From IMG/VR virus record IMGVR_UViG_3300001589_000152, positions 1,170-23,610 of that record: 22,441 nucleotides of DNA; one strand, given 5' to 3'. The stretch comes from a virus. Shown here in pieces: positions 179-15,180 of this stretch. Each line of letters begins with the position of its first letter. Positions within the stretch are counted from its first letter, which is position 1. The notes below the pieces were generated by a model. The model had not been told where the DNA came from. It did not search any database and worked only from the letters and a program-made list of their open reading frames with translations. Position numbers and translations under genes: made by a program.

Positions 179-781
179 ATGGCAACTAATATATACTTTT
201 CGCAAAAACACACTAACGAACAAAATCTGCACGAGGACATAATTATTGAGTCCTTAAAACTGTATGGGCAAGATGTATATTATCTTCCTAGGACTATAGT
301 GAATGAAAATAAAGTTTTTGGTGAAGATATACCATCAATATTTAATTCATCCTATAAGATTGAAATGTACATTGAAAACGCAGAAGGCTTTGATGGCGAA
401 GGCGATCTTTTTACAAAATTTGGAGTTGAAATTCGTGATGCAGCAACTTTCATTGTAGCAAGGCGAAGATGGAGTGGCATCATTGGCCAAGGATCAAACG
501 ATATAGAAACTGAAAGACCCGTTGAAGGTGATCTTATCTGGTTACCCCTTTCAAATTCTATGTTTGAGATTATGCATGTTGAACACGAATCTCCATTTTA
601 TCAGTTAAGTAATTTACCAACATATAAAATGAGATGTGAATTGTTTGAATACAACGGAGAAGATTTCAACACTTCATTAGAATCTCTAAATTCTATAGAA
701 ACTGAAGGATCTTATACTTATGAGTTGACTCTTAATCAACCAACAACAGCAACAGCAACAGCGGTGGTAGGTTCAGTATGA
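179..781 (+). CDS. 14: Neck protein gp14, N-terminal part (split gene)
   Basis: 200 aa. Residues 1-100 match the gp14 family closely: start MATNIYF, then YGQDVYYLPRTIVN, a YIENAEGF motif and KFGVEIRDAATFIVARR. In T4, gp14 (256 aa) is a neck protein needed for head completion and head-tail joining. The usual C-terminus (an LDFSE.NPFGDP-like end) is absent here and sits instead at the end of the next frame. The last residues, PTTATATAVVGSV, look like the start of the repeat unit that fills that next frame, so this reading frame stops in the middle of a repeat. The stop TGA overlaps the next ATG as ATGA. It is either a genuinely split gene with coupled translation, a frameshifted gene, or a sequence error. 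Confidence 0.9.
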   Translation: MATNIYFSQKHTNEQNLHEDIIIESLKLYGQDVYYLPRTIVNENKVFGEDIPSIFNSSYKIEMYIENAEGFDGEGDLFTKFGVEIRDAATFIVARRRWSGIIGQGSNDIETERPVEGDLIWLPLSNSMFEIMHVEHESPFYQLSNLPTYKMRCELFEYNGEDFNTSLESLNSIETEGSYTYELTLNQPTTATATAVVGSV

Positions 782-1869
782 GTAGTATTATTTCATTAAA
801 TTTAACTAACACAGGTAGTAGATATGATAGTGCGCCTTCTGTCATTATATCTCTGCCACAAGGAACTCCAACACATGCAACAGCAACCGCAGCAGTGGAC
901 GGACTGGGAAAAGTTAGCGGTGCAGTAGTAACAAATCCAGGCAGTTATTATATAACTCAACCTCAAGTTACTATAGATGTTCCGACGGATTCTAGTAACA
1001 AAAATGCTATCGCGTCTTTGGTGTGGGATAATTTAAATAAGAACGTGTATTCGGTAGCAATAGACGATTCCGGAAAATTCTATACAAGTGCGCCTACTGT
1101 GACGTTTTCTGATCCTGACTCTTTACCCGGAACTTTAGCAACCGCAACAGCAACTATAGCAAACGATAGAGTTTCGACATTAACATTAAGTAATGTTGGA
1201 GCGGGCTATACTAGTGCTCCGACAGTAACTATAGCGCCACCAACCGGAACTCCTAATAATTTTAGAGCGCAAGCTGCGGTTATAATGAAAAGCGAAGATA
1301 GCAATAATAGCATATTTTCTGTAAGTATTTTAGATTCTGGTAATTTTTACACAGGTATTCCGAATATAACAATAGACTCTGCGACTGGCACAAATCAACT
1401 TTTTAGAGCGCAGGCTGCTGCGATATTTGATTTTGATAATAAGAGATTGTTAAGATTAGATATAATACATAAAGGTAAGTATTACGATTCGAGTAACCCT
1501 CCTTTAGTCACTATTGCAGAGCCTCCGGCATTGACACGATTAGGTTTTAATATAGGAGAAAAAATAACTCATTCTGTTGGTGGTACTATACTAAGAGGCG
1601 AAGTATCTGCATATAGTAAAAAGAATGCCACAATGTCGCTAATTCATGTAGGCGCAGATGATGGTAATTATCATTCTCCTGCTGCATCCACAGATTCAGA
1701 TATTGTAGGTGCAAACGGCTCTAAAGTTGGAATAGCAACAGTGACAGATAATAATAAAATTCAAACAAACTCGCAAAATGATATATTCGATGCTACGGCG
1801 TCTAATGTTTTGCTTGATTTTCTAGACTTCTCCGAGACTAATCCCTTTGGCGATCCAGGAGACACATAA
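778..1869 (+). CDS. Repeat-rich protein carrying the gp14 C-terminus
   Basis: 363 aa. Residues about 13-250 hold six repeats with a period near 43 aa, centred on G..Y.SAP.VTI motifs starting near residues 13, 55, 98, 141, 187 and 233, with ATATA stretches between some of them. These look like short beta-rich adhesive or decoration repeats. Residues about 252-363 are different, and end LLDFLDFSETNPFGDPGDT, which I recognise as a gp14-type C-terminus. With the upstream frame this would make a roughly 560-aa gp14. The ATG overlaps the gp14 stop as ATGA; a GGTGGTAGG purine-rich stretch at 763-771 could serve as ribosome binding site. No slippery heptamer is visible in the shared open stretch 736-781. 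Its stop overlaps the gp15 start (TAATG). Confidence 0.75.
   Translation: MSSIISLNLTNTGSRYDSAPSVIISLPQGTPTHATATAAVDGLGKVSGAVVTNPGSYYITQPQVTIDVPTDSSNKNAIASLVWDNLNKNVYSVAIDDSGKFYTSAPTVTFSDPDSLPGTLATATATIANDRVSTLTLSNVGAGYTSAPTVTIAPPTGTPNNFRAQAAVIMKSEDSNNSIFSVSILDSGNFYTGIPNITIDSATGTNQLFRAQAAAIFDFDNKRLLRLDIIHKGKYYDSSNPPLVTIAEPPALTRLGFNIGEKITHSVGGTILRGEVSAYSKKNATMSLIHVGADDGNYHSPAASTDSDIVGANGSKVGIATVTDNNKIQTNSQNDIFDATASNVLLDFLDFSETNPFGDPGDT
814..1528 (+). repeat. Six tandem ~43-codon repeats inside the gp14 region
   Basis: Protein-level repeats: GSRYDSAPSVII, GSYYITQPQVTI, GKFYTSAPTVTF, GAGYTSAPTVTI, GNFYTGIPNITI and GKYYDSSNPPLVTI. Distances between them are 42, 43, 43, 46 and 46 aa. The DNA copies have diverged, so the array is old or under selection rather than a recent duplication. 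A seventh, partial unit is suggested by the ATATAVVGSV tail of the upstream frame. Confidence 0.8.
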
Positions 1870-3020: not shown

Positions 3021-4614
3021 AAAAGAGAGCTATCTTGGTAATCCTCAAGTAAAGAAGGATGGCGTTATTCAGCAGTGGACAAACGCTGAGGTACAAGAGT
3101 ACGCAAAATGTATGCACAACCCTGCGTATTTTGCCAAAACCTATTGTAAAATTATATCTTTGGATCGCGGTCTGGTTCCATTTGAATTATACGCATATCA
3201 AGAGGAAATGTTTAAATCGTTTAATGAGAATAGATTTTCAATCGTTTTGGCATGTAGGCAGTCTGGAAAATCTATATCATCATGTGCATATCTGCTCTGG
3301 TATGCACTATTCCATTCCGAACAAACTATTGCAGTCATGGCAAACAAAGGCGCTACAGCAAGAGAAATGATTGGTCGCGTTACACTCATGTTAGAAGGCT
3401 TGCCGTTCTTTCTTCAGCCTGGATGTAAAGCATTAAACAAAGGCTCTATAGAGTTTAGTAATAATTCTAAGATTGTGGCTGCGGCTACTTCAGGATCATC
3501 TATTCGTGGTATGTCTGTGAATTTACTATATCTTGACGAATTTGCATTTGTTGAAAATGCAGCAACATTCTATACATCAACATATCCTGTTGTGTCAAGT
3601 GGCGAATCTACAAAAGTTATTATTACTTCAACAGCTAATGGTGTCGGCAACGTCTTTCATAAGATTTGGGAAGGCGCAATGCAGAACACTAACGAATATA
3701 AACCATTTCGTGTTGATTGGTATGATGTTCCTGGGCGTGATGAGGCTTGGAAAGCTTCAACTATCGCTAACACTTCACAGCTACAATTTGATCAAGAATT
3801 TGGCAATACATTTATGGGCACAGGAAATACACTGATAGCTGCGGAATGTTTGTTGGCATTAAAAGCAAAAGAGCCGTTAAAACGTATTGACAGAGACTCA
3901 GTTTTAGTGTATAAAGAACCTGTAAAGAAACACAATTATGTTTGTATGGTAGACGTTGCTCGTGGAAGAGGTCAAGATTATTCAACATTTAATATAATAG
4001 ATGTAACAGAAGGTGAGCCTATTGAGCAAGTCGCAGTTTATCGAAATAATTTAATATCTCCTTTATTGTTTCCTAATATTATTGTAAAATATGCAGCAAC
4101 ATATAATGAAGCCACTATTGTGGTCGAATCTAATGATGCAGGTCAAGTAGTATGTAACGGTCTATACCACGATTTAGAGTATGAGAACATGTTTGTTGAG
4201 TCTGTAGTACATGCAGACAAAATTGGCATCAATATGACGAAAAAAGTAAAACGTATAGGATGCTCTGCTATAAAAGATTTATTAGAAACAGGCAAGCTAA
4301 TAATACACGATGAGGAAACTATTTTAGAAATATCAACATTTGAAGCCAGGGGCAATTCATTCGAAGCTAGTAATGGAAACCATGACGATTTAATGATGAA
4401 CTTTGTTCTTTTCGGATACTATACAGGTACATCGGACTTTCAAGAATTGAGTGATATAAATGTTAAAGACCTTATGTTCTCACAAAGAATGCACGAAATT
4501 GAAAACGACATGTTACCATTCGGGTTCATTGACGATGGTAGGGATGAACCTCTAGTTCAACCAGATGATCCTTGGGGAGTAATTCAACCAGAAGTTTGGC
4601 ACGATTATCGCTAA
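2998..4614 (+). CDS. 17: Large terminase subunit gp17 (packaging ATPase-nuclease)
   Basis: About 538 aa. It is the DNA-packaging motor that docks on the portal. ATPase domain: Walker A CRQSGKS at residues 86-92, Walker B LLYLDE at 176-181, coupling motif TSTAN at about 210-214. Nuclease domain: acidic residues at D319 (MVDVARGRGQD), E377 (VVESND) and D463/D464 (NHDDLMMN), fitting the RNase H-like terminase nuclease. T4 gp17 is 610 aa. Start is uncertain: in-frame TTG at 2995, ATG at 2998 and ATG at 3007 are all inside the end of gp16 and none has a clear Shine-Dalgarno; translation is probably coupled to gp16. All catalytic residues are present. Confidence 0.97.
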   Translation: MLQMILNEKESYLGNPQVKKDGVIQQWTNAEVQEYAKCMHNPAYFAKTYCKIISLDRGLVPFELYAYQEEMFKSFNENRFSIVLACRQSGKSISSCAYLLWYALFHSEQTIAVMANKGATAREMIGRVTLMLEGLPFFLQPGCKALNKGSIEFSNNSKIVAAATSGSSIRGMSVNLLYLDEFAFVENAATFYTSTYPVVSSGESTKVIITSTANGVGNVFHKIWEGAMQNTNEYKPFRVDWYDVPGRDEAWKASTIANTSQLQFDQEFGNTFMGTGNTLIAAECLLALKAKEPLKRIDRDSVLVYKEPVKKHNYVCMVDVARGRGQDYSTFNIIDVTEGEPIEQVAVYRNNLISPLLFPNIIVKYAATYNEATIVVESNDAGQVVCNGLYHDLEYENMFVESVVHADKIGINMTKKVKRIGCSAIKDLLETGKLIIHDEETILEISTFEARGNSFEASNGNHDDLMMNFVLFGYYTGTSDFQELSDINVKDLMFSQRMHEIENDMLPFGFIDDGRDEPLVQPDDPWGVIQPEVWHDYR

Positions 4615-8611: not shown

Positions 8612-11600
8612 ATGGCGGATATTATTAAGTGGGCTGCACAACCTAGCGGTATAGAAGGCAGAACGGAATTAAGAAACGACATTGAAATAAAATTGCCTCA
8701 TGGAACAACTGCTGTTTTCGTGGGCGTTGTACTTGATCCGTTATTTAATAAAGTGTCAGGTTCGAAAAGACCTACAGTCTGGAAACCAAGACAAACAGGC
8801 GGCGTAAACTTAACATTTACTCATCCTGAAGATGGATATGGCTCCGATGTTTCATCATTTTATTTAATTGGAATACCAATATCTCCTCTGAATAGCGTAT
8901 TTGCAATAGATACTTTTTCTTCTACAGACGGAGAATCTAGATACGAATCTTTGTGGTCGGAAGAAACTACTTATACCAACATATTTTTTACAGTTACACT
9001 ACCAGACATTATAGATGATCCTCTTTTTGATATAAATGCAGGATTAGGCGTGGCTGAGGATGATGTTATAGCTATCGGAGATTCATCTATTTCAGGTACA
9101 GTTTTTCCGCCTGGTCCAGGCGTTTTTACCGGAATAGAAGCAGATAGCATAAGAGCCGATCTTGGTGTTTTTGGTAGAATAGAAGCAGATAGCGCATATT
9201 TTATTGGTTTACGCGCAGACAGTTCTAGAATGAGATTTCTCTATTCTGATAGCATACAATCCTTATACTCATATTCAACTATAGGTGAAGCATTTTCACT
9301 AATAAGTGATTCCGCTACAATAAATAATGTCAACGCTGTAGATACAGTCACAGTAAATTTGACTGCAAGAGACGGAGTCATTACGACAGCACAAATAAAC
9401 AGAACTAACGGCGGCAGCGTTTATATGGACAGCTTTGTTCGCGCTGGAAGATATATGGTTGACGGTGGTATATATGACCGTAATGATTGGTTTAGCGATA
9501 TTAAGGCACTGGAAGAAGATAATTTTGGAGGTTTTTATTATATAAAAGAAAATCTCGCTGGTGTTGAAGAAAAAGTAGCGTCTTTAAAATACAATGAAAT
9601 TGATAAAATCTGGCAATTTAATCCTCCATTAAAGACACCAGCATCTGGTACTGATGGTACTGATTCAAGTATGCATCATGGCACAGGATTGCCAGGTCAA
9701 TTACTAACATATAGTAAATACGATAGTGCATATGTCTGGGATTATCCTATGGTCGTGGCAAGGTTTGCGTATGATAGTGAGGAAGTTACTAGACTTTTGA
9801 ATGATTTTCCTACTGGACTCTCAGACACAGATTCATCAAAGAGTGAGTGGGAAAAGTTTCAGATATATCGCAATGAAGATAGCATTGGCATCTTTCCAGG
9901 CAAAGAACGCATAAATCAATTAGATTTCGATTCTATCAATGTTACATTCGGCACTAAGAGTCGCGTGTCGGGTGTGACAAATATTAATAGAGGATACGAA
10001 TTTGACAGTATAACTGGTCAAGATATTGACTTTTCGGGTAATCCATTAGCTGGAGGCTCTGGCATATTCAATCCTAGAAACGAGATTCAAGGATATTACT
10101 CTCCTGATCCAGTTGCAAAATATAACTTACAAGTAACAATGTCTGCGCCAAGCGAAACTGTGCCACAAGCTGGCGCCATAGGTATTCTTGTAGGGTTAGT
10201 TAAGAGCGCAAATGAAGAAAAAACATTAACTCTATTTAGAAGTACTGTAGACTTAGGAAGAGATGGTGCAGCAGGACCATACGCATATACTTTTAACCAA
10301 CCACCTGGCTGGACTTCATATCATAAACATACAGTAATGAACTATTCCTTAGTATATAATGCGTTCAAACCAGACTCAAAAATTATATATAGTGAAGCAT
10401 CGGATGCTCCAACGCCGAGTGCAAATATGTCTTGGGCTACAGCAGGCAGCACAATAGTTAAAATCGAGAAAAATGAATCTGGTCTTAAAATTGATACTAC
10501 GCCGTTCGGCAGTTCAACATTTATTGCTAATCAAATAAACATCGATTTAAATCAAATAGATTACAGAAGTGGCGTGGACTTGTCAATATTTGCGGAGGAT
10601 GTTCACTGGGGATTTGCGTTTCATAATATAAATCAAGCATTAATATCAAACATAACATTTTCAACTTTAGATACTGGAAAATTTAATTGGGATGAGACTA
10701 CTGTTGTTGATTTAAAAAATAGAGATACTTATTTATTTTATGACGCTAGTAAGGCAGCCGAGTATGGTGAGACTGTAGGCTATAAAAAAATTAATACAGA
10801 CAGTAACGGAAATGATATTCTTGGTGGTGATTTACAAACAGGAAGATTTTATCATAATCCAGAAACACTAAAGACTTGGTATCAAGATCCTTGGCGAACT
10901 ATTCTAGTAGGTCAAATCTTACAAGACGATGAAAATCCTGCTTTATTGATACCTGAAGGCAAATTAGACATTCGAGCTACCGGGGTTGTTGGAGACGTTA
11001 GATATTTTATTTTTAACGGCAGGTCTCTGGATCGAATTAGAAAAACTGGTCCATTGGATCCAAGTGCAGCATATTATGACTATGCGTCTGATTTTGTGGG
11101 TCTAACATTTGCAAAATTAAGTAAATTTGGCATAATTGAAAATGTAGTAAACTTAGGTCCTAGTGAATATGGCGATCTAGCAGCTTTGATTTCGGCAATG
11201 GACGACGGCGACATGGGAATTATACATTCCGGAGGCGTGTGGTCACCATCATCTATACCTGCAGGATTCGAAGCTGCATGTTTATCAGTAAATCTAGCTA
11301 GATTGGCAAGTACACCTTCAACTGCTGACGGACATTATGTTTCGGGACTTTCTTATGCTGGTATATTTCAAGTAGGCGGGGCATCATATGAAGCTGCCGC
11401 GCAGCCATCTTCAGTAGCAAATGGTTTAGATAATCATGTGGATATGGTTGTGCAGTTCCTATCAAATACTTTTATTGTTCAAGATGCACAGCAAAGTCCT
11501 TCAGCTTTAACAAATTGGCAAGGCGATATTGCAGCTAGAATAACTAATAAAGGACATTTATTTACAGATACGGTAGAACTTACTGGACAAATACTTGGAC

Positions 11601-13378
11601 CATCAAATCTTATTATTGATCCTGCTACACATGGCGATAGCACTGGGTTAGTGACCATTAAAGGCAATTTGACTGTTAATGGTACAACTACAACAGTAAA
11701 TTCAACAGAAGTCACCATTGCAGATAAAAATATTATATTAGCATCTGGCGCAACAGATGCAGCTTCGGCAGACGGCGCTGGCATAGATATTGATGGTCCA
11801 CCCGCATATATCAGATGGATGGATGATAGTACTGGTATTTGGACTTTCAGCCATCCATTTGCTACTTCTCCAAATGTGCTTAACAACTATACTACAGATT
11901 TGGTACAAGAAGGCGACATAAACGAATATCACACCAACGAGAGGGTTAGAGAATTATTTTCTGCGGCAAATACTGGCGCAGGCACATACGCTCAATTATC
12001 ATATACTGAGGCAACAGGAGTTTACACTTTAAACGTAGATTCCATAGAAACTGCCGAGCTACCAGAACTAGATATAACAACAGCAAATACTGGAACTGGA
12101 ACATATGCTCAACTATTAGCATACAATGCAGCAACAGGAACTATAACTTTAAAGGTAGACGCACTAGATGCTAATGAAATACCACTTTTGCCTGCATCTA
12201 AACTTGATTCCGCAGCGGGACCGATACCTCCGGCCTTGATGCCTGTTATTCCAGAGTCTGCCATCACACCGCACGCAGAAGCTATTACAGCAGCACAAAA
12301 TTCTGATGGATCGTATTCAGACTTTACTATAGTTAAAGATAATCCGACAAACGAAGGTTCACTTGCTTATGCAGAAGCTACAGGACAATTTAACATTACT
12401 TTTCCTCATAGTTTTTCAAGGTTTTGGATAAAGAGTTATAACGCTAACAATTCGCCATATACCCAAGAGATATTTTCATCTAGTGATCCAGTATCGGGAT
12501 CTGGTAGAGATGGCTTTTATTGGAATGGTGGTACTGGTATTCGTTTAATGCCAACAATGTCTACAGATTGGGCAGAAGATAGTGTTTCTGTCACATTATA
12601 CGCTTGGCTTGATTCATTGCAAGATGTAACGATTACGAACCCACAGCAATATGATAAATTAGAGTACAACGGCGATAGTTGGACTAACGTATCTCGACCG
12701 CCTTTAACTATAGGTCCTAATGCTGTGGCAGATTCCGTAGACGGTGCTTTATTTTATGATTCCGCAACAGGAATACTTCAATTTAAACCTCCATTCTTTA
12801 TAGGTAAAATAACTGGAGCCGACGCTAGTACAACTACATTGACGGCAGATAAACAAAATGTTACGTTTGCTTCCTCAAATGCAGCACTTTCTATTACAGC
12901 ATTGAATCAAACAGTCACGTTTGATATTGATGATGATGCTTTAGGCGGCGGCACAACATATACGGCAGTAGCAAATAAGGGTATAACGGTAGACGCTACA
13001 AATGAAACCTTAGCTATGAGTGGTGATTATACTGGCGATTTTGCTGTAACAGGAGAAATTACAGCTACAGGAAATGTAACAGCTTCGCACTCGTCAGATT
13101 CTAGATTGAAAGAAAATATAGAGAAAATAAACAATTCTTTAGATAAAGTTTCTTCATTGGGCGGATATACTTTTAACTGGAACAAAAAAGCTGAAGGTAA
13201 AAATACAGATTTAAAAGATGTTGGTGTTATCGCGCAGGAAGTTGAGGCAGTGATGCCAGAAATTGTTATAGATAGAATAGATGGTTATAAGGCAGTATAC
13301 TACGAAAAACTTATACCATTATTGATAGAATCAATAAAAGAATTAAAAGAACGTATTGAAAAATTGGAAAATAAATAA
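8612..13378 (+). CDS. Large tail fibre-like protein with S74 chaperone domain
   Basis: 1588 aa. The N-terminal 150 residues are not recognised. Residues about 170-240 repeat an (A/E)ADS motif (GIEADSIRADL, GRIEADSAYFI, GLRADSSRMRFL), suggesting a beta-helical shaft. Near 1015-1050 is a GNLTVNGTTTTVNSTEVTIA segment followed by ADKNIILASGA, a module I know from marine phage fibres. A 39-aa tandem repeat follows at about 1120-1197. The last 94 residues are a peptidase S74 intramolecular chaperone: SDSRLKENI, VGVIAQEVEAVMPEIV, a YEKLIPLLIESIKEL helix and a coiled-coil end. This family trimerises fibres and cuts itself off, here expected near residue 1494-1495. No clear ribosome site; the ATG is three bases after the gp20 stop, so coupling is likely. 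Could be a long tail fibre or a tailspike. Confidence 0.88.
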   Translation: MADIIKWAAQPSGIEGRTELRNDIEIKLPHGTTAVFVGVVLDPLFNKVSGSKRPTVWKPRQTGGVNLTFTHPEDGYGSDVSSFYLIGIPISPLNSVFAIDTFSSTDGESRYESLWSEETTYTNIFFTVTLPDIIDDPLFDINAGLGVAEDDVIAIGDSSISGTVFPPGPGVFTGIEADSIRADLGVFGRIEADSAYFIGLRADSSRMRFLYSDSIQSLYSYSTIGEAFSLISDSATINNVNAVDTVTVNLTARDGVITTAQINRTNGGSVYMDSFVRAGRYMVDGGIYDRNDWFSDIKALEEDNFGGFYYIKENLAGVEEKVASLKYNEIDKIWQFNPPLKTPASGTDGTDSSMHHGTGLPGQLLTYSKYDSAYVWDYPMVVARFAYDSEEVTRLLNDFPTGLSDTDSSKSEWEKFQIYRNEDSIGIFPGKERINQLDFDSINVTFGTKSRVSGVTNINRGYEFDSITGQDIDFSGNPLAGGSGIFNPRNEIQGYYSPDPVAKYNLQVTMSAPSETVPQAGAIGILVGLVKSANEEKTLTLFRSTVDLGRDGAAGPYAYTFNQPPGWTSYHKHTVMNYSLVYNAFKPDSKIIYSEASDAPTPSANMSWATAGSTIVKIEKNESGLKIDTTPFGSSTFIANQINIDLNQIDYRSGVDLSIFAEDVHWGFAFHNINQALISNITFSTLDTGKFNWDETTVVDLKNRDTYLFYDASKAAEYGETVGYKKINTDSNGNDILGGDLQTGRFYHNPETLKTWYQDPWRTILVGQILQDDENPALLIPEGKLDIRATGVVGDVRYFIFNGRSLDRIRKTGPLDPSAAYYDYASDFVGLTFAKLSKFGIIENVVNLGPSEYGDLAALISAMDDGDMGIIHSGGVWSPSSIPAGFEAACLSVNLARLASTPSTADGHYVSGLSYAGIFQVGGASYEAAAQPSSVANGLDNHVDMVVQFLSNTFIVQDAQQSPSALTNWQGDIAARITNKGHLFTDTVELTGQILGPSNLIIDPATHGDSTGLVTIKGNLTVNGTTTTVNSTEVTIADKNIILASGATDAASADGAGIDIDGPPAYIRWMDDSTGIWTFSHPFATSPNVLNNYTTDLVQEGDINEYHTNERVRELFSAANTGAGTYAQLSYTEATGVYTLNVDSIETAELPELDITTANTGTGTYAQLLAYNAATGTITLKVDALDANEIPLLPASKLDSAAGPIPPALMPVIPESAITPHAEAITAAQNSDGSYSDFTIVKDNPTNEGSLAYAEATGQFNITFPHSFSRFWIKSYNANNSPYTQEIFSSSDPVSGSGRDGFYWNGGTGIRLMPTMSTDWAEDSVSVTLYAWLDSLQDVTITNPQQYDKLEYNGDSWTNVSRPPLTIGPNAVADSVDGALFYDSATGILQFKPPFFIGKITGADASTTTLTADKQNVTFASSNAALSITALNQTVTFDIDDDALGGGTTYTAVANKGITVDATNETLAMSGDYTGDFAVTGEITATGNVTASHSSDSRLKENIEKINNSLDKVSSLGGYTFNWNKKAEGKNTDLKDVGVIAQEVEAVMPEIVIDRIDGYKAVYYEKLIPLLIESIKELKERIEKLENK
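11969..12202 (+). repeat. Two tandem 39-codon repeats in the fibre gene
   Basis: Units start at 11969 and 12086, exactly 117 bases apart. Both begin NTG(A/T)GTYAQL and continue with Y.(E/A)ATG...L.VD. The copies are diverged at the DNA level. A related EATGQFN pattern occurs later near 12380, so the unit may belong to a wider repeat family in the shaft. Confidence 0.75.
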
Positions 13379-15180
13379 TGGCTTTACCTTTTAATGGTCC
13401 TATATCATTAATAGATATACAGACTGAATTTGGTGGCAGTTCTCCTCAAGAATTACACGAATATTATCGGGCTGGAACACATGTTCCATCTAATCCAACA
13501 ACAATGCATATACCAACTGGTAGTGCTGGTACTACTATTAGTTTGTTTGATTTTTACGGATCATCAAATAATGCTACAGGAAATCCAATTCCTGCAACCA
13601 TTTATATGACAGGTACTAGGTCTGTTAGATCCCTAACAAGTGAATCTAAAGGTGCAACAAAAACTTATTACTTTGGAAATGGCCTTGGCAGTGGCGTAAT
13701 TCCTTGGAACTCAATCAATAACTCAGTGATGGATGTATATGATGGATGTACATGGGGATTTTATGCGTTAAGTGCAGGCGGCGGCGGTAGTTTAAGTAGT
13801 AGAACTACGGATGCCAATGGTACAACATACCTCATGGGCGGTAGTGGCGGCGGCGGAGGCTCATGTTTGTTGGTTACTCACGGCGTACCTTTTGATAAAA
13901 ATAGACAATATAAGATTGAAATTGGATCAGCAGGTTATAGCGGCGGTTCTTACCACAATGGTGCCACCACGACGAATGGTGGTGCTGGTGGACCCATTAT
14001 AATTAGTAGTTCTTCTGGCGTAACTGGAGACGATCATGTAGACAATATTATAGCTAAAGTAAACGGCGGCGGCGGAGGATATTCAAATTTCTATTATGCC
14101 TCGCCCGGTGCAGCGATGCAGACGCAAATTTTTGGCGGCGCGGGGGCGGGTGTCGCTGTTCGACCAAACGACTCATTTATTGGAATAGGTGGCACTGGTG
14201 GAGCAGCTACATATGTAACCAGACCTACTACAGCGGCAGCTTTCGGCGGCGGTGGTGGCGGCGCTGGTGGCTTTGACGCTACAATAGTAAATTCAGTAAT
14301 AAATCAAGCAGATGGAGGTGACGGCGGTACAAATGGTGGCTCTGGAAGCCAAGGCAGCTTTGGCGGCGCTGGTGGTGGTGCATCTGACGCAACATTTAAT
14401 ACATATAACGGTGCATACACGTGGTACGCTGTATCCAACAGCGGATCACCTGCATTTGATGCGGCTGGCGGATATAATAGTGGTGGAAGTAGTATTTTAC
14501 CATTACTATCTGGCGATGGCTATGCGAGCCGACGAGTCATATATGATGGAACCAATCCTCCATATGTAGACCCATATCCACCTTTTGGCTATTCCGTTAA
14601 CAACGCTTTTTGGAGCCAAGCATCTAGCAGTGGAGCAGTTACATCTTTTCCATCGGGCCCAAACAACTCTGCCCCCCCAACTTATTCTTCAAGTAATGCT
14701 GCGTTAAAGTTTGAAAATAGTGCTAAATACAGACACTACCAAAAAAACGCAATTAACAGAAATTATCCCCAAAATTGGTTTAGTAAATTTTTTCTAACTG
14801 GACAGTATGGTAACAACAATCTAAGTCCACTGACTAATGGTAGAGATTCTAGAGGTGCTGCGGGCACAAACACAAGCAATGTCGCTATGGGCGGTGGTGG
14901 AGTGTATGGAGGATTTTCTGGAGCAGATCATAGAAGTTACTTAAATAGTATCACAGCGGATACTAGCGGCAACCGTTTTAATGCATTTGGCTGTGGTGGT
15001 GGTGCGGCAAGTAACTATTTTTTATATGGCGGCGGCAGATTTAGTAGTGGCACCAATATAGGAACAGAACAGCCGGGTATGCCCGGAGGTCCAGGAATGG
15101 TTGTAATATGGTTTCAAACAAATGGAACTGGCACAGGCGGTTTCAAGAAATTACCATATAATGAAGGTACACCAATATAA
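13378..15180 (+). CDS. Glycine-rich tail adhesin-like protein
   Basis: 600 aa. Residues 1-62 form a module frequent in phage tail proteins: PFNGPISLIDIQTEFGG, then HEYYRAGTHVP and TTISLFDFYGS. After a spacer, residues about 130-340 contain many glycine-rich blocks (GGGGS, GGSGGGGGSC, NGGGGGY, FGGGGGGAGGF, FGGAGGGAS), with more near 500-560 (MGGGGVYGG, CGGGAAS, YGGGR) and an end GPGMVVIWF typical of glycine-rich phage tail domains. Glycine-rich loops and polyglycine helices are the receptor-binding elements of the gp38 adhesins of T4 relatives; similarity here is of composition and context, not proven homology. The ATG overlaps the fibre stop (TAATG), so the two are co-translated, as a fibre and its tip adhesin would be. 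Local GC is raised by GGC/GGT codon runs. Confidence 0.8.
   Translation: MALPFNGPISLIDIQTEFGGSSPQELHEYYRAGTHVPSNPTTMHIPTGSAGTTISLFDFYGSSNNATGNPIPATIYMTGTRSVRSLTSESKGATKTYYFGNGLGSGVIPWNSINNSVMDVYDGCTWGFYALSAGGGGSLSSRTTDANGTTYLMGGSGGGGGSCLLVTHGVPFDKNRQYKIEIGSAGYSGGSYHNGATTTNGGAGGPIIISSSSGVTGDDHVDNIIAKVNGGGGGYSNFYYASPGAAMQTQIFGGAGAGVAVRPNDSFIGIGGTGGAATYVTRPTTAAAFGGGGGGAGGFDATIVNSVINQADGGDGGTNGGSGSQGSFGGAGGGASDATFNTYNGAYTWYAVSNSGSPAFDAAGGYNSGGSSILPLLSGDGYASRRVIYDGTNPPYVDPYPPFGYSVNNAFWSQASSSGAVTSFPSGPNNSAPPTYSSSNAALKFENSAKYRHYQKNAINRNYPQNWFSKFFLTGQYGNNNLSPLTNGRDSRGAAGTNTSNVAMGGGGVYGGFSGADHRSYLNSITADTSGNRFNAFGCGGGAASNYFLYGGGRFSSGTNIGTEQPGMPGGPGMVVIWFQTNGTGTGGFKKLPYNEGTPI

Follow-up and report, generated by a model that had tools for sequence, protein, structure and literature searches.

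Sequence comparison indicates that one group of marine T4-like phages, all uncultured, genuinely encodes the neck protein gp14 in two overlapping genes, the first specifying the core domain and the second a repeat-bearing C-terminal arm. The division was recognized in a 22,441-nucleotide stretch (here called the window) of the 25,462-base IMG/VR virus record IMGVR_UViG_3300001589_000152. It recurs at the same place in other, divergent assemblies, and the second chain very probably starts at an ordinary ribosome-binding site lying within the first gene.

Organization of gp14 in the window

The window belongs to a T4-like phage and covers its head-neck-tail block, in which the last part of gp13 (61% identical across 57 aa to the C48C1 phage protein) is followed by gp14, gp15 (PF16724, E 1.8e-72), the small and large terminase subunits, sheath, tube and portal, and then by protease, scaffold, major head protein, UvsY and helicase. 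The order gp13-gp14-gp15 is that of T4. Between the portal and head protease genes lies a large structural protein of 1588 aa (positions 8612 to 13378) with a C-terminal Peptidase_S74 chaperone domain (PF13884, E 5.9e-18), and a 600-aa open reading frame (ORF; 13378 to 15180), for which a PHROG search at E 1e-4 gave no match, starts in a TAATG overlap with it.

The first gp14 frame (179 to 781, plus strand, as are all features described here) encodes the 200-aa core (head closure protein, Hc2), which ends in ATATAVVGSV ahead of the stop codon TGA (779 to 781). Its product matches the Pfam T4_neck-protein family PF11649 above the cut-off (E 1.3e-36, profile positions 33 to 199 of 278), covers positions 14 to 209 of 385 in phrog_460, and over residues 6 to 174 resembles the core domain of T4 gp14 in PDB 9mkb (phmmer E 7.8e-27). 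The second frame (778 to 1869, ATG at 778 to 780) encodes a 363-aa arm protein comprising half a repeat, five repeats, the gp14 C-terminal domain and a tail; its best stretch in phrog_460 is positions 225 to 379 of 385 (E 4.4e-28), and its repeats also match other cyanophage structural families. Since the two products match successive parts of phrog_460, they jointly cover one head-closure family. The original prediction, made from the letters of the window, that gp14 lies across two overlapping frames with its C terminus in the second, is thereby borne out. The stop and start codons share the 4-nt overlap ATGA (778 to 781), and positions 736 to 781 (46 nt) are open in both frames and contain no slippery heptamer, as had also been stated.

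Within the arm, five three-strand repeats (880 to 1515, model residues 35 to 246) and the C-terminal beta domain (1561 to 1710, model residues 262 to 311, from alignment and model) precede the conserved tail FLDFSETNPFGDP (1819 to 1857), in which residues 348, 351, 353 and 355 to 360 (F, F, E, N, P, F, G, D and P) are invariant among 26 aligned arm proteins. The junction with gp15 follows directly (1857 to 1871): AGGAG, 7 nt and an ATG in a TAATG overlap. The TAATG build is also that of most split junctions within gp14.

In T4, gp14 is a single 256-aa chain, whereas the window has the core and the repeat-bearing arm as two genes. The PF11649 core of Hc2 proteins is present, but the core and C-terminal region, which share a chain in T4, occupy two ORFs in 33 loci. 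Profile alignment (hhalign) of T4 gp14 with the marine family extends over T4 residues 37 to 183 only, leaving the T4 C-terminal arm unaligned with the marine arm.

Two-gene gp14 in related phages

IMG/VR was searched with three split-form queries, and the best 80 loci for each were retained, giving 231 loci; these, the window, the record it comes from and phage C48C1 jointly represent 179 distinct core DNAs. The original prediction had pointed to gp14 relatives as a means of recognizing a one-frame state, and both states were found: 142 of the 179 are one frame ending in NPFG and 33 are split, a proportion that is no measure of natural frequency because the loci are the best 80 per query and all queries were split forms. 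The remainder are two one-frame genes that run off their contigs, one gene with a stop in the tail (L028) and one broken gene (L124). Three of the 33 (L053, L147 and L175) are truncated by a contig end and were included because the split junction is present, whereas L124 was scored as split automatically and was excluded as a broken gene: near position 2500 its gp14 degenerates after about 200 aa into a non-family peptide and looks damaged or misassembled. In L028, a single contig, the stop of the one-chain gene (3859 to 3861) lies just 5' of the NPFGD tail.

In all 33 split loci, window included and drawn from the best 80 matches per query, the core ORF ends at residue 196 to 201 and an ATG stands at the junction. 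The arrangement is ATGA in three, TAATG in 29 and a 12-base spacer in one (L008), in which AGGAG lies across the stop codon and the arm frame is in phase 0. The split loci from the first search have cores between 100% and about 64% identical to the window protein. Two loci on other contigs, L001 and L002, have core proteins 100% and 97.5% identical to that of the window and keep the junction with its ATG. In six split records (four of 57 to 91 kb), the search for a gp14 core gave a single match per record, above the cut-off, although these records may be fragments. The shortest complete arm protein has 272 aa and the longest 801 aa; the latter belongs to L034 (1409 to 3811), and the core on this contig is nested within a set of short one-chain gp14 relatives, which may reflect module exchange.

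The named phages inspected present the one-chain form. The core matched 2,360 named phage records, and gp14 was annotated as a single gene in all 14 inspected, 13 of which were also translated. The arm protein of another lineage (L166) had only three phage-record matches, each within an annotated gp14. No report of a split gp14 was found in the titles and abstract openings of open-licence PubMed Central literature on gp14 or neck proteins.

Position of the split within the repeat

Among the 142 one-chain genes, the repeat pattern was found in none of the 102 whose products have at most 347 aa but in 34 of the 40 with products of 371 to 420 aa, where the repeats come directly after the core. 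One-chain marine gp14 proteins with repeats (S-CAM9, 657 aa; S-SKS1, 491 aa; L122, 372 aa) share the core, repeat type, C-terminal domain and NPFG tail of the two-gene form; they differ in having a single frame and a hairpin turn that is intact or longer.

In the AlphaFold model of L122, strands are predicted at residues 193 to 199 and 202 to 210 with a two-residue turn between them (pLDDT 78 to 93 for residues 181 to 340; the core is poorly modeled, at 27 to 49). The split position corresponds to this turn, so that strand A of the first predicted beta-hairpin ends the core protein and strand B begins the arm. In the window, the strand-A codons (ATATAVV, 749 to 769) are on the core and the strand-B codons (SIISLNLT, 784 to 807) on the arm. 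The original reading of a junction in mid-repeat therefore stands: the second frame begins with the second strand of a repeat, and ATATAVV fits as the first strand of that repeat. The same arrangement is seen across the 28 distinct split pairs, with patterns fitted after inspection: an A-rich strand-A peptide ends the core in all 28, and the first strand-C motif lies at arm residue 18 to 22 in 27, placing the start of the arm just 5' of strand B. Extra residues at the hairpin turn were noted by eye in eight of the 11 one-chain loci inspected from the L069 clade.

The model of the window arm has strands A, B and C in each of its five later repeats; the first repeat lacks strand A, and strand B is unformed (mean pLDDT 60 for residues 1 to 10 and 57 for residues 11 to 20). 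This model is weak (mean pLDDT 71; pTM 0.36; two of the five models at about 48), so the first strand may be missing because it lies at the chain end. The best Foldseek hits of the one-chain L122 model in the PDB were T4 gp14 chains (E 2.6e-5, low TM). Neither the arm profile (best E 0.14) nor the C-terminal 192 residues of L122 (best E 0.10) had a significant match in the PDB, and a VIA-align comparison of L122 residues 177 to 339 was middling (best Z 6.0, rmsd 2.9, 64 residues) and was set aside. A BFVD search with the arm model gave 39 hits with E values up to 0.001. TM was low, and most hits were to phage proteins that are unnamed or structural, one of them a neck protein of a cyanophage.

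These data bear on a reading of the arm as a separate virion protein, a neck fibre or decoration, that has kept the gp14 tail for docking and re-forms no repeat. Other structural, baseplate and fibre families of phages match its type of repeat, and its length is variable, as might be expected of such a protein, but the core of every distinct pair retains the strand-A peptide and almost every arm begins just before strand B, and we regard this reading as rather unlikely. The alternative that we prefer is that core and arm are two halves of one gp14 and that their chains, on balance, rejoin in the neck through predicted pairing of the ATATA strand of the core with the first strand of the arm.

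Translation of and selection on the second frame

Shine-Dalgarno-like bases (at least three of AGGAGG in the 14 nt scanned) precede the junction ATG in 31 of 33 loci and in 21 of 23 distinct junctions, compared with 31% of 18,369 14-base stretches from the same genes and 38% of one-chain genes at the equivalent place. At least four such bases occur in seven of 33 loci versus 8% in the control. The scan of the 33 junctions found no match in L004 and L053, and L034 has GGA only. In the window, the bases are AGG (769 to 771), 6 nt 5' of the ATG at 778 and within the upstream frame. Many lineages share the nucleotide pattern GAG, about 7 to 9 A/T-rich bases and ATG, the reading frame of which differs by lineage. 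Furthermore, in the group with 198-residue cores, codons 195 (GCG) and 196 (AGT) are invariant in those 14 of 16 rows that retain the residue; codon fixation of this kind occurs in only five of 118 conserved columns, and conserved columns of four- or six-codon residues average 0.56, all from rows that are related.

Arm-frame dN/dS values were 0.05 to 0.34 in nine pairs, with synonymous sites near saturation in some. For the window arm they were 0.24 against L002 and 0.33 against L004, for the first 60 arm codons they were 0 to 0.33, and the single usable pair for the core frame gave 0.11. By these ratios the second frame is shown to be under purifying selection.

The junctions resemble termination-reinitiation gene pairs (-4 or -1 nt) in their ATGA or TAATG overlap and in having Shine-Dalgarno-like bases in the upstream gene. 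The short stop/start overlap is present in 32 of 33 loci, the 12-nt gap of L008 being just beyond about 10 nt, and the upstream-frame ribosome-binding site in 31 of 33, the exceptions again being the two loci that lack a match. One study (PMC10666635) describes gene pairs spaced -8 to +10 nt as enriched for subunits of one complex, and the products of a two-gene gp14 are likewise probably in one complex. Here the two genes differ from such pairs in being halves of one ancestral protein, cut within one repeat. From these sequence features we consider it very probable that ribosomes begin the second chain at an ordinary binding site within the first frame, coupled to termination of that frame, which would give two proteins in related amounts. 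A real split with ATGA coupling was one of three readings that the original prediction had left unranked, and it is the one that the other loci favor; recoding and sequence error fared poorly.

Programmed -1 frameshifting would fuse the two frames into full-length gp14, and the short form would come from ribosomes that do not shift. The second frame is indeed in the -1 phase in 32 of 33 loci (not in L008), with overlaps open over 4 to 58 nt, but this phase is expected regardless because ATGA and TAATG overlaps produce it. None of the 33 junctions has an in-phase slippery X_XXY_YYZ sequence or a homopolymer of 6 or more, and the overlap open in the -1 frame is 4 to 16 nt in six loci. The -1 peptide 5' of the ATG varies by lineage while frame 0 retains the A-rich peptide (23 loci), and in L008 the phase-0 arm frame lies behind a stop and spacer, with no overlap. 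Pseudoknot-free RNA folding at the window junction (731 to 860, window only) was ordinary, with z -0.47 and 73 of 200 shuffles equally good. A slippery site (33 junctions), downstream RNA structure (window only) and a conserved -1 overlap frame were thus sought and not found, and recoding of gp14 is very unlikely. Errors that split a one-frame gene are possible in metagenome contigs, and L124 and L028 could be examples, but the junction with its ATG is common to L001, L002 and 30 further loci, to about 64% identity among those compared, so that an error in the record of the window is hardly credible unless one error is common to all assemblies.

Relationship between one-chain and two-chain forms

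The core-domain tree comprised 111 rows, with the long-branch P-HM1, S-SKS1, S-CAM9, Mosig and HTVC008M sequences left out; L028 (stop in tail) and L112 and L125 (both running off contigs) were treated as one-frame rows in the trees. On this tree the split label requires 10 changes, at least five of them forced by well-supported branches, and three-state changes number 14. A single clade of the 19 nonredundant split rows, as a single origin of the split would give, was rejected (p-AU 2.5e-6). On the C-domain tree, the split label requires eight changes, at least three of them forced, and a single clade of the 16 usable split rows was also rejected (p-AU 0.007), from few columns and with the bootstrap not settled. 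Rejection of a single split clade implies that the state switched repeatedly or was moved by recombination; the tree pattern may reflect repeated fission, fusion or recombination. A study of pelagimyophages (PMC7029224) describes a variable island that adjoins gp14.

One-chain relatives with the identical repeat type are present in the same clade as split forms, indicating that the function does not need the arm in trans.

Proposed neck architecture and implications

Taken with the translational signals, the position of the cut points to what is probably a translation-coupled fission of gp14, with its chains rejoined by strand pairing and a tail-docking arm supplied in trans. Fission would have turned gp14 into two frames, the second having its own start overlapping or close to the stop of the first. 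Termination of the first frame would lead to coupled initiation of the arm from the internal ribosome-binding site. The ATATA strand, the last of the core, would then pair with the first strand of the arm, closing the repeat that is cut at the hairpin turn.

A preprint (PMC12270204) describes T4 gp14 as a hexameric ring on the gp13 dodecamer with stopper loops in the core; residues 178 to 256 are described there as disordered before tail joining and bound to gp15 afterwards. By analogy with T4, we infer that the marine core forms the gp13-bound stopper ring and that the arm, with its invariant tail, docks on gp15 at tail joining. Because the T4 arm has no sequence alignment to the marine arm, the gp15-docking role is argued from position only.

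A more speculative extension, which we put forward as doubtful, is fragment complementation. The arm would be tail borne, with its NPFG tail attached to gp15, and its orphan strand B would pair with the exposed ATATA of the head ring, so that joining completes the cut hairpin. The DNA-sealing core could then stay as it is while the arm is swapped or lengthened, with repeated switching between one and two chains at the turn.

The second gene calls for caution in annotation, as it resembles an anonymous repeat protein unless it is taken together with the first. The packaged DNA is sealed in by gp14, which also receives the tail, and a natural two-chain form marks where the core and the docking arm are separable. 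Two-chain gp14 thus offers a chance to test the action of the arm in trans.
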